IMG/VR virus record: IMGVR_UViG_3300018045_000014
Location: 1 to 32,690 of that record
DNA from: a virus
DNA length: 32,690 nucleotides
Direction: 5' to 3' (one strand)
The notes under the pieces were generated by a model. It saw only the letters and a list, made by a program, of their open reading frames with translations, made no database searches and was not told where the DNA came from. This document shows, piece after piece, positions 1,224 through 24,645 of the stretch. Every line of letters starts with the position of its first letter. Position 1 is the first letter of the stretch. The position numbers were made by a program, and so were the translations under genes.

Positions 1224-2678
1224 TTACAATGACACACATGCAGCAAAGCCGACATCACCGTAACCTCCTGCATTAAACGTTCTTAAATAAACATCAAATA
1301 CCCCCGCATTATTGCCTGAATCATACGTCCCGCCCGCGGCTGGAATCATGTAATTGGTTCTCCAGCAGTAAATTGAATCATTTCCGAAAGCCGTTGTACC
1401 TGCTTGTGACACCCCAGTTGATAGCGGGAACCCGGCACAAGTAAAACGGAAATCTTCTTCGTCATTTGTTATCGCTTGCGAGGTGCTGAACACCTGCTCA
1501 GTATTTAAACCGAGTCGTCTGTCGCCGAGATTACCCGACACCAAGCTTGACAAGTCAACGCCGTCATACAAATCAGTAAAGATTGTCGATTCTGTTATAT
1601 CGTTCGGATTCACGTCTGTTTTAAGAATGTTGAAAATTGAGCCTGTCGTTCCGTAATGAACAACACCAATATTTGCGCGCCGGAGATTGCCATTCACGTC
1701 TGCCACACCACAGGCCTGACCGTTGTGTGTAGTCTTAGCAAGATTGCTTCCAGAGGCAGTTAGCGCACTCTGAGGAACAATTTCGTCCCCACCTGAAGTG
1801 AACGTTAACGTTGAATCGGCAGAATCGGACAAAGCTCCGCTATTGTTGCCTTTAGGCAAATAGGGCGCGACATCCATCCACGCAGCCTCAAACTCACTAG
1901 GACTTGCATCACTGTGCGCTTTTGCTAAAACGGCAAGGGCGTTGGCTTCAAATAGACTTTCAAGATGATGTGAAGTAGATCGATAGGTTTTAATGCCTGA
2001 GACCATTGATTGAAGCCCTGTTGAAACCCCACTAAGAGAATCCACAGTAATCGCCGTCGCGGGTGGGTTATTCGGTCGTGCAATTGGAACTATTCCCGCA
2101 CCTACATCTAGTAGCGACACGTGCGTTGTGTCTCGCAAAAAGCCGATTGTGCAATGCCTAAAAGCTTCGTGTTTCGCAAAACCAGCTTCTTCTTGAGACC
2201 GCACCTCCGCAACGTTACCATTCCATCTAAACCAAAACTCTCGAATGAATCTCATATAAGAGCCAGCAGGATCAATAACCAAGCCATAATTGGGTGAAAG
2301 CCTGTCAGCGTGACCGGTTGGCAACGTGTAACCAGCCGGTACTTCGTCAGCACGCAGTGCGGATACACCGAAACCAATTTGCCCTGCTGTTCCGATTGAA
2401 TAAACTTCACTGTCTGCGATATCATCTTCTGACACTTCTAACTTGTTCAACGCCTTCGACGCATACGCAATATCTTCAAGTACGGTTGATGCATTGATGA
2501 TCGTTGTTAAGCGCTCAGCAAGCACCACTCTAACGTCATCAATTCCTGTTAAAAAATCACCTTCTGCCAGCTGTTTAATAGCGGCACACGCAAAAGATAG
2601 TTGCTTCAAGTCAGATTCGGTTTCTGCGATTATGCGGATTTTCTCAAGTGCCGCCGTTCGGGTGTTGTTATATCCCAT
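1224..2678 (-). CDS. tail fibre / receptor-binding protein
   Basis: This 484-aa protein has a helical N-terminus (about residues 1-85) likely to attach to the tail, then beta-rich segments. The glycine- and aromatic-rich C-terminus (about 400-484) contains YCWRTNYMIP and ends DVGFAACVSL. That end recalls C-type-lectin or FGE-like tips of phage receptor-binding proteins such as Mtd-type proteins, but the resemblance is by eye only. AGGAG lies 6 bases before the ATG. It follows the coiled-coil protein gene and precedes a possible chaperone. No reverse transcriptase or template repeat of a diversity-generating retroelement was seen in the window, so diversification is not claimed. Confidence 0.65.
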   Translation of the reverse strand: MGYNNTRTAALEKIRIIAETESDLKQLSFACAAIKQLAEGDFLTGIDDVRVVLAERLTTIINASTVLEDIAYASKALNKLEVSEDDIADSEVYSIGTAGQIGFGVSALRADEVPAGYTLPTGHADRLSPNYGLVIDPAGSYMRFIREFWFRWNGNVAEVRSQEEAGFAKHEAFRHCTIGFLRDTTHVSLLDVGAGIVPIARPNNPPATAITVDSLSGVSTGLQSMVSGIKTYRSTSHHLESLFEANALAVLAKAHSDASPSEFEAAWMDVAPYLPKGNNSGALSDSADSTLTFTSGGDEIVPQSALTASGSNLAKTTHNGQACGVADVNGNLRRANIGVVHYGTTGSIFNILKTDVNPNDITESTIFTDLYDGVDLSSLVSGNLGDRRLGLNTEQVFSTSQAITNDEEDFRFTCAGFPLSTGVSQAGTTAFGNDSIYCWRTNYMIPAAGGTYDSGNNAGVFDVYLRTFNAGGYGDVGFAACVSL

Positions 2679-2687
2679 CTTTATCTC

Positions 2688-3089
2688 CTAGAGTGGATTC
2701 AATTCGAAGTAAGCCATCGCCATTTCGTTGTTGTAACTTTGCATCTTTGCAACCTCTAGCGCCCCAACTTCGCTTGCCGCCAAAACCGCCGCATCTCTGG
2801 CACTTTCCGCACTGTTAACCGCCGTTTGCGCAGCGACACGACTGACATCCGCATCATTCGCGTAACGTTGTGATGACGAGCTGGCTTCGCTTGCACGATT
2901 TGCGTCTAGATCGATCTCTGAGTGCTTAGTGCTTATGTCGTCGTAAATCACATTAAGCTCTGTGTTCGAGCCGTTGTACTCCAGCACCATGTCGCGCATG
3001 GCGGAGGCCAGCGTAAACATTTTTTCGCTGAAATTAGGATCGCCTAGCGTTGGGATTTCTGGGAGCGTGTTGATTTCTGGGATTGCCAT
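2688..3089 (-). CDS. coiled-coil tail-tip/fibre connector protein
   Basis: This 133-aa protein starts with a Pro-rich segment (INTLPEIPTLGDP). A long alanine/serine-rich helical stretch follows (about residues 55-120, AANRASEASSSSQRYA-like heptads), typical of trimeric fibre shafts and linkers. Its start overlaps the stop of the upstream gene as TAATG, so translation is coupled. Its place between a distal tail protein and the fibre suggests a connector or baseplate-to-fibre linker, which is an inference. No enzymatic motif is visible. Confidence 0.6.
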   Translation of the reverse strand: MAIPEINTLPEIPTLGDPNFSEKMFTLASAMRDMVLEYNGSNTELNVIYDDISTKHSEIDLDANRASEASSSSQRYANDADVSRVAAQTAVNSAESARDAAVLAASEVGALEVAKMQSYNNEMAMAYFELNPL

Positions 3090-14969: not shown

Positions 14970-15449
14970 TTATTTGAGTTGGGTGTCGATAAAGTGGGCG
15001 AGGTTGTCGAGGATTTCGGCTTCGTCTTGGGCGCTCAATCCAATAAACGGACGGGCGGGGATATTGCCCCACGGGATAGGACCTTTGCGCTTGGTGCGAC
15101 CGAATGCGCCTTGTTTGGCACCGAACTGCATGGTGGCGGCGTATTTACGATCTGAACCAAATTCCACGCCGCTACCGCCATTGACCAATTGATACGCCAG
15201 CTCTCGGTGCAGATCACCGTGCTCAATCAAGATCTTATCTTTGTTTTTCTTTTTGCGTTTAAGCGTGACCGGTGAAAGCGGTGCAAAAGGCTTGCCCTCG
15301 ACATCCACACCGGCTTCAAGGCGATCACGGGTGTTGTTGAGCAGGGTTTCCCCAACTCCCCCTAGTGCCTCAGCCATATCGAGATCGGCTAAGTTATTGA
15401 GCGCGTCTCTCACGCGCTTGTCGTCAACGGTAACCTTAATGCCTGCCAT
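14970..15449 (-). CDS. G: gpG-like virion morphogenesis / tail completion protein
   Basis: This 159-aa protein belongs to the phage virion morphogenesis family (Mu gpG, P2 gpS-like). It has a helical N-terminus with an ALNNLADLDMAEALGGVGE segment and a KPFAPLSPVTLKRKKKNKDKIL segment near residue 52. ILIEHGDLHRELAYQ is followed by VEFGSDRKYAATMQFGAKQG, and the end has IPARPFIGLS. The family acts in head or tail completion. Its start at 15449 is next to the divergent promoter of the plus-strand RNA gene, which is 1 base away. Confidence 0.9.
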   Translation of the reverse strand: MAGIKVTVDDKRVRDALNNLADLDMAEALGGVGETLLNNTRDRLEAGVDVEGKPFAPLSPVTLKRKKKNKDKILIEHGDLHRELAYQLVNGGSGVEFGSDRKYAATMQFGAKQGAFGRTKRKGPIPWGNIPARPFIGLSAQDEAEILDNLAHFIDTQLK

Positions 15450-15478
15450 TTGAGTTCCCTGTGTAATTGATCTATAAT
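15450..15478 (+). promoter_or_regulatory. sigma70-type promoter on the plus strand
   Basis: TTGAGT at 15450-15455, a 17-base spacer, and a perfect TATAAT at 15473-15478. It points away from the phage operon direction, and no other plus-strand gene of any size follows. The predicted transcription start is near 15485. It needs no activator by its sequence, so it should be active in the lysogen. Confidence 0.75.
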
Positions 15479-15484
15479 GAAATT

Positions 15485-15725
15485 CTTCGGGGTTGAACTG
15501 CTGAGTGACTGACCACTGTGAAGCAAACTAACCGTCGGCGGTGCCTGTCAGTGGGCGCATAGCCCTTATTCCTCTCTTTCCTCACTCAGAATCAACTGCC
15601 CCATTCTTTCTTTATTTAGCTGTTTTGGTTAAGATAACAATATAGGCAGTGCTTCTGCCCAGTGCATGCGGTACAACGCGTGACTGAACTCAAAGGCCGC
15701 TTGACTCGTTCAGCGGCCTTTTTTT
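15485..15725 (+). ncRNA. structured noncoding RNA on the opposite strand of the late operon
   Basis: This is a transcription unit of about 240 nt between a sigma70-like promoter and an intrinsic terminator, with no usable ORF. A long interrupted stem pairs 15489-15492 with 15599-15602, 15493-15496 with 15592-15595, 15501-15508 with 15582-15589 (8 bp), and 15513-15518 with 15549-15554. An ACCG-TCGG-CGGT tetraloop hairpin lies at 15531-15542. A pyrimidine-rich linker (about 15601-15620) follows. Then come a GGCAG/CTGCC hairpin, a CAGT-CATGCG/CGCGTG-ACTG hairpin (15660-15686) and the terminator. I do not recognise an Rfam family. In Mu, F and G are adjacent, so this looks like an inserted moron. 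Confidence 0.7.
15692..15725 (+). terminator. rho-independent terminator of the plus-strand RNA
   Basis: AAAGGCCGCT at 15692-15701 pairs with AGCGGCCTTT at 15712-15721 around a 10-base loop, followed by a run of seven T (15719-15725). The T-run is on the plus strand only; the minus strand has just TTT after the stem, so it may weakly affect transcription leaving MuF. The last bases overlap the MuF stop codon. Confidence 0.88.
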
Positions 15726-16956
15726 ATTCACCCCTACGATAAATACGCTCTCCATTGCGAGCCTTTTCCAGATAACCAAGCTTGTCAGGTGTAAAGACTG
15801 TCAACCCACTCCAATACTTGCCGGAAAGGTCAAAAATCGCCAGACCACCTTGCTGTCCTTCCAGCGCAATATTTGCGACATAGCGACGTACCAAACGTGT
15901 GACATCGCCAAACTCCTGCCATTGTAGCCAGATTTCGTCCGGCTCCTTGATTGAGTGTGCCAACAGCTTGATATAGGGAAGCCGCTTAATCAAATCTTGA
16001 CTGTTCTTCCACTGTTTGTTTCGGGTCTGGAATAAGAATTCATTAATCAAGACAGGATGCCCCAGCACATCTTCATAAAATTTTGGGTTGCCAATATCGG
16101 CATCAAACGCCTGTAAAAAGGCCCGCACATATTCTTCTGTCGCCAAGCCTGTGGGCAAGATTAAGTCTTGTGACAGCGGTCTGGTTTTAGGTAGATCGTC
16201 CGGCGCCTGGCAGTAAAAGGTACACAGTGCCAGCGGATTGATTTTAAAATCGGAAAACTCTGGAGTAATACCTTTTAAGGACTCTTTGCCAACATGGTAA
16301 GCAAACCCAGCATCCACACCGTCGGCGACTTTGACGGTTCGCGGATTCGTTCGCACGCCAACGGTTTGTTCTGACCAGACGGTTTGTGGCGCGTCTGAAA
16401 CGGTTAAGCCTTTGCGCTCTAGATCTCGTTCAGACAGGGTGCGTACATAGCACTGACAGCCCCAGCCGTTGGGTGGGTAGTGCACATCCCACCACGGATC
16501 GTCCGCTTTAAGCACCATGCCGTCCCAGCTCAAATGTTGCTCACGGGCATCGGTGACGGCGATTGAGTGTTTGTATTGCCAGTAAGGGCGAGAGCGCGTA
16601 ACTTGCTGCATTTGTTGATAGCGACCCGCGGCGTAGGCAGCGCGTAAATTGGTGTCGTAAATGACGCGCGTTCGCCAGTTGCGGCCACCGTTATAGCTCC
16701 AGCCGTGTTTTTTGACAATGGCATCGAAGTCTTGGCGAAAGTTCTCCAGTGTGCTTTCGCCCGATATGCCTTTGGCAATGGCCGCTTGAAAATCGGCAAG
16801 CAGATCGTCTTTCATGGCTCCGGCAATCACAAACGCCTTGGCGTGTTGTTGTTGCCAAATATCCGCCCAAGTGGCGGTTGGCAGGCGCAGCTTGTCACGA
16901 AAGAAATCAATTTTCTCTTGAAACTGAATGGAACCGTAGTGCGCGTTATCTGGCAT
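15724..16956 (-). CDS. F: MuF-like minor head protein with C-terminal PBECR-type nuclease domain
   Basis: The N-terminal 200 residues are the Mu F/SPP1 gp7 head morphogenesis domain: NFRQDFDAIVKKHGWSYN, WRTRVIYDTNLRAAYAAGRYQQM, and a zinc-type motif region with WDVHYPPNGWGCQCYVR. From about residue 265 a second domain (LPTGLATEEYVRAFLQAF, HPVLINEFLFQTRNKQWK, KEPDEIWLQW, GLAIFDLSGKYWSGLTVF) matches the pattern of PBECR nucleases (phage Barnase-EndoU-ColicinE5/D-RelE-like) fused to MuF proteins. The core Mu F function is internal head assembly near the portal. The tail domain could be a toxin delivered with DNA. AGGGG lies 6 bases before the ATG. No dedicated immunity gene is evident next to it. 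Confidence 0.85.
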   Translation of the reverse strand: MPDNAHYGSIQFQEKIDFFRDKLRLPTATWADIWQQQHAKAFVIAGAMKDDLLADFQAAIAKGISGESTLENFRQDFDAIVKKHGWSYNGGRNWRTRVIYDTNLRAAYAAGRYQQMQQVTRSRPYWQYKHSIAVTDAREQHLSWDGMVLKADDPWWDVHYPPNGWGCQCYVRTLSERDLERKGLTVSDAPQTVWSEQTVGVRTNPRTVKVADGVDAGFAYHVGKESLKGITPEFSDFKINPLALCTFYCQAPDDLPKTRPLSQDLILPTGLATEEYVRAFLQAFDADIGNPKFYEDVLGHPVLINEFLFQTRNKQWKNSQDLIKRLPYIKLLAHSIKEPDEIWLQWQEFGDVTRLVRRYVANIALEGQQGGLAIFDLSGKYWSGLTVFTPDKLGYLEKARNGERIYRRGE

Positions 16957-18586: not shown

Positions 18587-20088
18587 TACCAGGCTCCTTG
18601 TTTACTAAAGTGGCCATCTTCACGATAGCCTGTTTCTTTGACGGATTCGGGTTCTTTGATCGGTGTCCAGTCGGCTTCCCAAATGTCTGCGAGTGAGGCG
18701 GCATAGGCCATGGCAATGGCGATGGCGGCGTCGCCGTGGCGGTCTTTTTTGGAGCCGGTTTTGATATCGGGAATTTTGGGCACGCCTTTGACTACCTGAA
18801 TAGCGCGTAGGTCGTTGAGCACATCCGCGTCTTTGGGCAGACGAATTTGATCGTCTTCGAAGGCGGCTTTGAGCTTGGGCATATTCTCCAGATACCAGCC
18901 CTGGGAGAGCATGACCTGCTCAACGCGACCACCGTACTTGTAGGCGGCTTGCTCTGCTAAATATTGCCCATTACCGCGTGCATCAAACTTGAGTGCCATG
19001 AGGCGTGGCAAACGGTCGTTAATGTAATAGACAATCTGCTCTTGGTTTTTAAAGGGCACGTTTTTGAGCTCCACCAGAAATGGCACGGTGCGCAGCAGAT
19101 TTTGGGCAATGGCCATCGGTGCGAGTACGGTTAAATCGCCAGAGCGGCCAAAGTCTTCCCCAAAAGCGTGTTGTTCGCTGGGGTTAAGAGCCAGTAAAAG
19201 CGGTTTTACATGCGTTTCACACCAGTCTTTGATTTCGGCTTCACGAATATGTTCTGGCCACGTATTAAACTCGGCGGTTCCTTCATAACGAATCACAGTG
19301 GCATCCACCATGCGCGACTCAATCAACATGCGATTCAAATAAGCGCCACCGCCCTGTTTGGGTTCGCAGTAGTACTCTTCACGCGCATCTTCCACTGTGG
19401 CGGTGTCCTTGAGCAGATTGGCTTTCCAGTGGTCTTCAGCTTGCTGACTCCAGTCCATGCCGCGAACTTGGCAAATACGTTGATAGAGACCTTGCTCACA
19501 GGCGTCGTCTAGCGTAATACGGTGTACCGAATAGCGTTTCTTTGCTGCGCGGCTGTCTTGAATGAGCTCATTGAACAGATTGTCCCAGCCGTTATGGGTA
19601 GATATGAGCCGAACTTTCGCGCCCCACATGGTAAGTGCCAGTGCGGCTTTAAGCACTTCGGCCAAGCGGTCATGGAAGGCCGCCTCATCAATAGTGACAT
19701 TGCCTTGTCTTCCACGAAGATTGGAAGGGTTAGAACTGAGCGCCTGAATCTTAAACCCACTGGCAAAACGAATATTAAAGGTAAGAATGTCTTTGTCTGC
19801 ATCTTGTAAAATTTCCTCTTCTATCTCGCTTGCGGCTTTGTTAAAGGCTTTGGCCCACATGGCACAGGCATCAATAAACTCAATGGCCATTTCTTTGTTG
19901 GATCCGACGTAAAAGTGATTGGTGCCGCCCGCTGACTTCTCTGAACTGGCAGAGAGTACGGCATCGGCGGCTTCCCCCCACGTCAATCCGGTACGACGGG
20001 ACTTCTCGGCAATCTTGAGCGGGGAGACGTCTTCAATCCACGCTTTTTGGTACGGCAAAAGTACGTCGTTGGCGTCATAGGTGTTCAT
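18586..20088 (-). CDS. terminase large subunit (Mu gp28-like)
   Basis: This 500-aa packaging motor ATPase-nuclease has its Walker A-like segment as KSRRTGLTWGEA (residues 29-40) and Walker B as VTIDEAAFHD (131-140). A coupling motif, RLISTHNGWDN, lies near 170. The nuclease part has GEDFGRSGDLTV near 310 and DARGNGQYLAEQA near 395, and ends with DRHGDAAIAIAMAYA near 460, the expected acidic cluster positions. Headful packaging from the phage end, as in Mu, is inferred. Start and upstream stop overlap as TAATG. Confidence 0.94.
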   Translation of the reverse strand: MNTYDANDVLLPYQKAWIEDVSPLKIAEKSRRTGLTWGEAADAVLSASSEKSAGGTNHFYVGSNKEMAIEFIDACAMWAKAFNKAASEIEEEILQDADKDILTFNIRFASGFKIQALSSNPSNLRGRQGNVTIDEAAFHDRLAEVLKAALALTMWGAKVRLISTHNGWDNLFNELIQDSRAAKKRYSVHRITLDDACEQGLYQRICQVRGMDWSQQAEDHWKANLLKDTATVEDAREEYYCEPKQGGGAYLNRMLIESRMVDATVIRYEGTAEFNTWPEHIREAEIKDWCETHVKPLLLALNPSEQHAFGEDFGRSGDLTVLAPMAIAQNLLRTVPFLVELKNVPFKNQEQIVYYINDRLPRLMALKFDARGNGQYLAEQAAYKYGGRVEQVMLSQGWYLENMPKLKAAFEDDQIRLPKDADVLNDLRAIQVVKGVPKIPDIKTGSKKDRHGDAAIAIAMAYAASLADIWEADWTPIKEPESVKETGYREDGHFSKQGAW

Positions 20089-24551: not shown

Positions 24552-24560
24552 GACAATGGG

Positions 24561-24645
24561 TGTTCGGGAGGGTAAGAACCTGTTCAGCGGATCAGGCTGG
24601 CTTATTCCCCATAAATGGGTCTTGTATTAAGCCAACTCCCGAACA
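24561..24645 (-). ncRNA. C4-like antisense RNA upstream of rha
   Basis: A 10-bp perfect closing stem (24636-24645 with 24561-24570, arm TGTTCGGGAG) encloses two hairpins. One is UUGGCUUA/UAAGCCAG (one U-G pair that only the minus strand can make), capped by CCCA-UUUA-UGGG. The other is CCUG/CAGG with loop AUCCGCUGAA. An unpaired junction UUCUUACC follows. Loop and junction are each complementary to sites near the rha start. This is the plan of the phage C4 RNA (P1/P7 c4), which represses antirepressor translation. I have not compared it with the Rfam model. Confidence 0.75.

Follow-up and report, generated by a model that had tools for sequence, protein, structure and literature searches.

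A structured antisense RNA gene between genes F and G of a Mu-like phage: a proposed antidote to the nuclease-type domain of the neighbouring MuF protein

The F–G interval and its RNA gene

The window (the whole stretch of DNA that was analysed, a Mu-like phage record of 32,690 bases) carries genes F and G on the minus strand, with a portal gene (PF06074) upstream of F. The two genes are separated by 274 nt, and this interval houses a plus-strand promoter, a structured RNA of about 240 nt and a terminator. The features of the locus are:

14970–15449, minus strand: gene G, Phage_tail_S (PF05069, by Pfam).
15450–15478, plus strand: promoter of the RNA gene, TTGAGT-17-TATAAT, with the −35 box at 15450–15455 and the −10 box at 15473–15478.
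15485–15727, plus strand: structured noncoding RNA, antisense to the F–G junction (from its fold z-score, no usable ORF and no Rfam match).
15489–15602, plus strand: large closed domain of GGGG/CCCC, TTGA/TCAA, CTGAGTGA/TCACTCAG and inner pairs (single-sequence prediction).
15501–15508/15582–15589, plus strand: stem CTGAGTGA/TCACTCAG (single-sequence prediction).
15553–15565, plus strand: inner hairpin GGGC-GCATA-GCCC (single-sequence prediction).
15692–15727, plus strand: intrinsic terminator, a 10-bp stem (15692–15701/15712–15721, 10/10 pairs) and a T tract.
15724–16956, minus strand: gene F, MuF head protein (PF04233) with C-terminal PBECR2 (PF18810), by Pfam.
15736–16122, minus strand: PBECR2 nuclease-type domain of F, residues 279–407, the proposed RNA partner (by Pfam; conserved K, R and T all present).

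An earlier note on this DNA had described an independent, oppositely directed noncoding RNA gene at this position, with its own promoter, extensive pairing, a strong terminator and no usable ORF, and in these respects the description stands. The promoter, of the sigma-70 type, has its −35 box abutting the start codon of G; it scores 10/12 and is the sole site with that score in 2.3 kb, while sites scoring at least 9 occur there at chance level. The 5′ end of the RNA is taken to lie about 7 nt past the −10 box. The plus strand from 15485 to 15727 gives a folding energy of −81.8 kcal/mol, against −65.7 ± 4.7 in dinucleotide shuffles (z = −3.4, with 1 in 200 as low), and the stems that had been claimed, CTGAGTGA/TCACTCAG among them, were recovered. 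The terminator, whose fully paired stem runs into the T tract, overlaps the stop codon of F. Neither strand has a usable ORF in the F–G interval, the longest plus-strand frames being of 34 and 26 amino acids with GTG starts.

The earlier note had connected the RNA with no described family. At gathering score, Rfam 15 matched neither the window RNA, for which relaxed E-values brought up only weak matches at chance level, nor the RNAs of the relatives described below. A blastn search of the RNA region against phages matched nothing, a PADLOC search gave no match, and no tandem repeat was found in the window RNA. Within this RNA, CGCAT at 15556–15560 could form a loop–loop pairing with ATGCG at 15666–15670; this is a guess from a single sequence and is left out of the argument. 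The same phage carries a second structured RNA, a match to Rfam RF02221 (sRNA-Xcc1) at window positions 24554–24644 on the minus strand, with 55.6 bits (gathering score 53).

The C-terminal domain of F matches PBECR2 in Pfam with E = 1.6e-26. The AlphaFold model of this domain has a pLDDT of 82.6; Foldseek found no significant match to it in the PDB, and in VIA-align the best Z was 4.0, a sequence-specific ribonuclease domain (3ao9) being among the tied weak matches. In the passages that Iyer et al. (2017, PMC5512222) devote to these domains, PBECR is an RNase by prediction, inactive in Mu gp30, and its targets are guessed to be mRNA or CRISPR RNA.

The interval in Mu-like relatives

Relatives were gathered from viral contigs and genomes, both via G and via the C-terminal domain of F. 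Across the 288 Mu-like loci in which both genes could be assigned, the F–G gap is bimodal, measuring either at most 24 nt or at least 54 nt. MuF proteins that end after the MuF domain have the short gap, of at most 24 nt; long gaps beside BECR-type (nuclease-tipped) F genes contain an RNA gene on the antisense strand, in most cases with a clear −10 box. Read in the same direction as the window RNA, 86 of 141 distinct gaps have such a box, with at least five of six positions matched, directly behind the ribosome site of G; shuffles give 11.5 and the opposite strand 10. The bimodal gap and the recurrent −10 boxes therefore make the window RNA one case of a common arrangement, and not the isolated insertion that had been supposed. 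The adjacency of F and G in Mu-type phages, from which an addition had been argued, holds for Mu itself (where the genes overlap by 4 nt) and for D3112 and DMS3. In the relatives examined, however, F and G are more often separated by a gap that holds an antisense RNA than adjacent, and the phages without the RNA, such as Mu, DMS3 and JBD67, look like losers of it.

The slot RNAs are mostly single units, with two tandem units in three loci (L225, L245 and L137). Some gaps hold other things. In L013 to L034 the F–G gap of 190 nt contains a sense ORF of about 60 amino acids, possibly a protein immunity gene, and the MuF proteins, of 493 amino acids, have no recognised BECR domain; this ORF was set aside as belonging to a different, non-BECR type of MuF. 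A gap of 526 nt in L016, L021 and L025 contains an extra ORF and, on the antisense strand, a tRNA-like element that was not called by ARAGORN. The C-terminus of F in L126 shows a weak Pfam match, below cutoff, to a metallopeptidase-type toxin domain.

Compensatory base changes in homologous F–G gaps had been set beforehand as a refutation test, and they were found in both of the sister classes large enough for it. In the first, the 57 distinct RNAs beside PBECR2a domains, a scan of all column pairs with no preset model recovered two hairpins, an outer stem and a loop–loop pseudoknot. Pairing in this structure reaches 93.7%; there are 278 double-change cells, where shuffles have 79, and covariation is 0.617, compared with 0.192 in shuffles and at most 0.095 in slid controls; the pseudoknot has double changes at all five of its pairs. 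In the second class, the 24 type B RNAs, covariation is 0.363 against 0.140 in shuffles, and the pseudoknot is 100% paired. At paired sites G-U outnumbers A-C by 83:16 in the PBECR2a RNAs and by 21:6 in the type B RNAs, which fits transcription of the RNA-gene strand. Plain folding of the slot RNAs favours the plus strand modestly (mean z −1.4, against −1.1 for the minus strand), and the argument for the strand therefore rests on covariation, wobble pairs and the promoter.

RNAs paired with MuF_C-class domains have features resembling an acceptor arm and a T arm, with sub-threshold matches to tRNA models (E = 7e-4 and 0.005); ARAGORN called no tRNA in the relatives with tRNA-like gaps. The fold class of the RNA differs with the class of the nuclease-type domain.

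The only alignable relative found for the window RNA is an identical copy (L002), and the covariance model of the PBECR2a RNAs does not match it (3 bits). It is accordingly placed in the group, as a divergent instance, by its position, its signals and the intact PBECR2 linked to it, and not by alignable sequence. These same facts, together with a gap of 274 nt against about 100 in the sister RNAs, could mean that the window RNA is an unrelated moron and occupies the slot by chance; this is considered quite unlikely, given that it shares with the sister RNAs its place, strand, −10 position and terminator, and that an intact PBECR2 adjoins it.

RNA presence and the state of the F domain

The F proteins encoded beside an RNA end in a PBECR2, PBECR3, MuF_C-like or unassigned (type B) domain. 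Profile comparison ties PBECR2a and PBECR2b to PBECR, and revealed no similarity of the type B domain to PBECR2 or MuF_C. RNA-less members of these domain families have lost conserved polar residues, and the structural core (PDE.W, R.G) is kept in both groups. Scored on conserved columns that were chosen after the RNA-positive sequences had been seen, the PBECR2a domain is intact in 75/75 proteins with a long gap and in 1/11 without; for PBECR2b the figures are 16/16 and 0/3, and for type B 36/37 and 0/9, the type B exception (L085) being a broken frame. The sole intact PBECR2a domain with a short gap (L227) does have an RNA, which overlaps an extended F frame and was recognised by the covariance model. 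Pooled, the ratio of intact to broken domains is 127:1 with a long gap and 1:22 with a short one (Fisher 3e-24, before the L227 correction); after the recount, 128 of 129 domains with an RNA are intact, and none of the 22 without. If only the published type of residue pair (R/H and S/T) is considered, it is broken in 8 of 10 RNA-less PBECR2a domains. On the trees there are 6 label changes for PBECR2a, 4 of them forced, 3 for type B and 2 for the MuF_C class; since several changes are required per tree, co-loss is recurrent.

An independent check matters here because the columns were chosen after the fact. It was provided by fourteen named phages that had not been used to choose the columns, with the reservation that Mu had been part of the initial set for its own class, in which the residues were read by eye. 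Gap and domain residues were concordant in 14/14: B3, RcapMu, RR1-B, RcWaterboi, AFS-2018a and RC1 have an F–G gap of 66–124 nt and intact residues, while Mu, DMS3, D3112, JBD25, UMP151, JBD67, PM105 and phiSHP3 have a gap of at most 1 nt and broken residues. In these phages the RNA is deduced from the gap, and the class of B3 includes close relatives whose gap RNA was inspected. The broken residues of Mu agree with the inactive PBECR reported for it in the relevant passages of PMC5512222. In B3 (L146, NC_006548) an annotated 32-amino-acid ORF34 covers the antisense RNA site at 18980–19078 and is probably no gene.

That the RNA comes and goes with the state of the active site in the neighbouring F domain indicates this domain as the partner of the RNA, and disfavours the targets that the earlier note had entertained, namely host mRNAs, incoming phages in general and the late transcript. 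The last of these deserves separate comment: the RNA is fully complementary to the F–G intercistronic mRNA and convergent with it, as an antisense regulator of the overlapping late transcript should be. Such a role is nevertheless highly improbable, given the selection on the fold of the RNA itself, with a pseudoknot that would be superfluous for plain antisense action, a pattern of loss that follows active-site residues rather than operon layout, and the existence of orphan copies, described below, that have no such target.

Proposed function and relation to known systems

On the strength of these sequence comparisons, the RNA of the F–G slot is probably a dedicated antidote of the MuF C-terminal nuclease-type domain encoded beside it. 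The RNA would bind the nuclease domain and block its active site as a structured decoy, and in one domain class it may act as a tRNA-like mimic. The toxin would be a late protein carried in the virion; the RNA, from a promoter that should need no phage activator, would be present both in the lysogen and soon after infection. Producer and lysogen would be protected, and a recipient without the RNA would not. The window would represent one divergent instance, in which a longer RNA accompanies a PBECR2 domain that retains the three conserved residues. An antidote is the most economical account because the RNA is kept only with a live-looking nuclease, its fold follows the nuclease class, and it has its own promoter.

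The covariance model of the PBECR2a RNAs was also run over 649 whole genomes from two bacterial families. Most matches adjoin a MuF-PBECR2 gene, and orphans away from MuF genes were found in L332, L333 (two copies), L337, L340 and L341. The orphan of L337, in the region 1490–3089, has a −10 box and a terminator-like hairpin, and sits where a CRISPR array whose period is 61 nt has its degenerate end; the L341 orphan has in its vicinity a purC-like gene and a long ORF resembling a tape measure protein. An immunity function predicts such orphans, though they might also be remnants of decayed prophages.

The main rival is a cofactor or guide RNA, whose distribution would be the same as that of an antidote. 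If the RNA were a positive partner, loading or directing the MuF nuclease as its guide, scaffold or packaged cofactor and losing its use once the nuclease is dead, its pattern of presence and absence, which fits any obligate partner, and the dependence of its fold class on the domain class would be equally accounted for. This is thought fairly unlikely: the five loci with orphans and no MuF gene nearby fit protection better, and the promoter stands apart from the late operon, though a virion cofactor would be needed late. A further alternative makes the RNA a natural substrate of the nuclease, or a sensor, cut for instance for autoregulation or to time the action of the toxin. BECR enzymes cut structured RNAs, according to the same passages of PMC5512222, and some slot RNAs are tRNA-like; this reading explains neither the orphan copies nor the strong separate promoter, and is very unlikely.

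If the slot RNA is an antidote, it may belong to a widespread RNA immunity to virion-delivered toxins, in which each class of MuF nuclease has its own antidote (kissing-hairpin, tRNA-like or larger pseudoknot) encoded antisense in the head operon, and bacterial orphans defend against phages that inject the matching nuclease. This broader proposal is put forward tentatively, as quite possible without being probable. The C-terminal extensions of Proteobacterial phage MuF proteins, left open by Jamet et al. (2017, PMC5576092), would gain an RNA immunity partner; it would become clear why classical Mu has no such RNA; and the role of the nuclease end of gpF, a long-open question, would be directly testable in RcapMu and B3. 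Several RNA families that Rfam lacks also come out of the analysis. Both RNA antitoxins and MuF toxins were already known; what appears to be new is the pairing of the two, the antisense arrangement and the RNA families themselves; no RNA partner of MuF was found in the literature, which is weak evidence, as subscription papers lay mostly outside the coverage.

Several known systems invite comparison. The PBECR domains of Iyer et al. belong to the same domain family and have the same predicted active site, and the passages concerned describe no RNA partner. The window F has the layout of the MuF polymorphic toxins of Jamet et al., a fusion of PF04233 and PF18810 encoded after a portal gene, and shares with them the MuF N-terminus, a toxin-type domain at the C-terminus and an immunity-like gene that follows at once downstream; their immunity candidates are small ORFs, whereas here an RNA gene with no usable ORF lies downstream. 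A likeness to tRNA (Rfam RF00005/RF01852), below gathering scores, is confined to the MuF_C-class RNAs, the window RNA being unlike tRNA. The closest parallel in proposed logic is with type III toxin–antitoxin systems (ToxIN, CptIN, TenpIN), in which a structured, pseudoknotted RNA neutralises an endoRNase and is useless without it. There the toxin is ToxN, and here it would be the PBECR2 domain of a virion head protein, a predicted nuclease; the pseudoknot is backed by covariation in the sister classes, not in the window RNA. The type III RNA consists of tandem repeats and its gene lies upstream of the toxin gene, with which it is cotranscribed, whereas the window RNA lacks repeats, its sister RNAs seldom have more than one unit, and the gene lies 3′ of F on the other strand, with a promoter to itself. 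The best reading is that the slot RNA would work like a type III antitoxin, yet with neither the repeats nor the operon by which those systems are defined.
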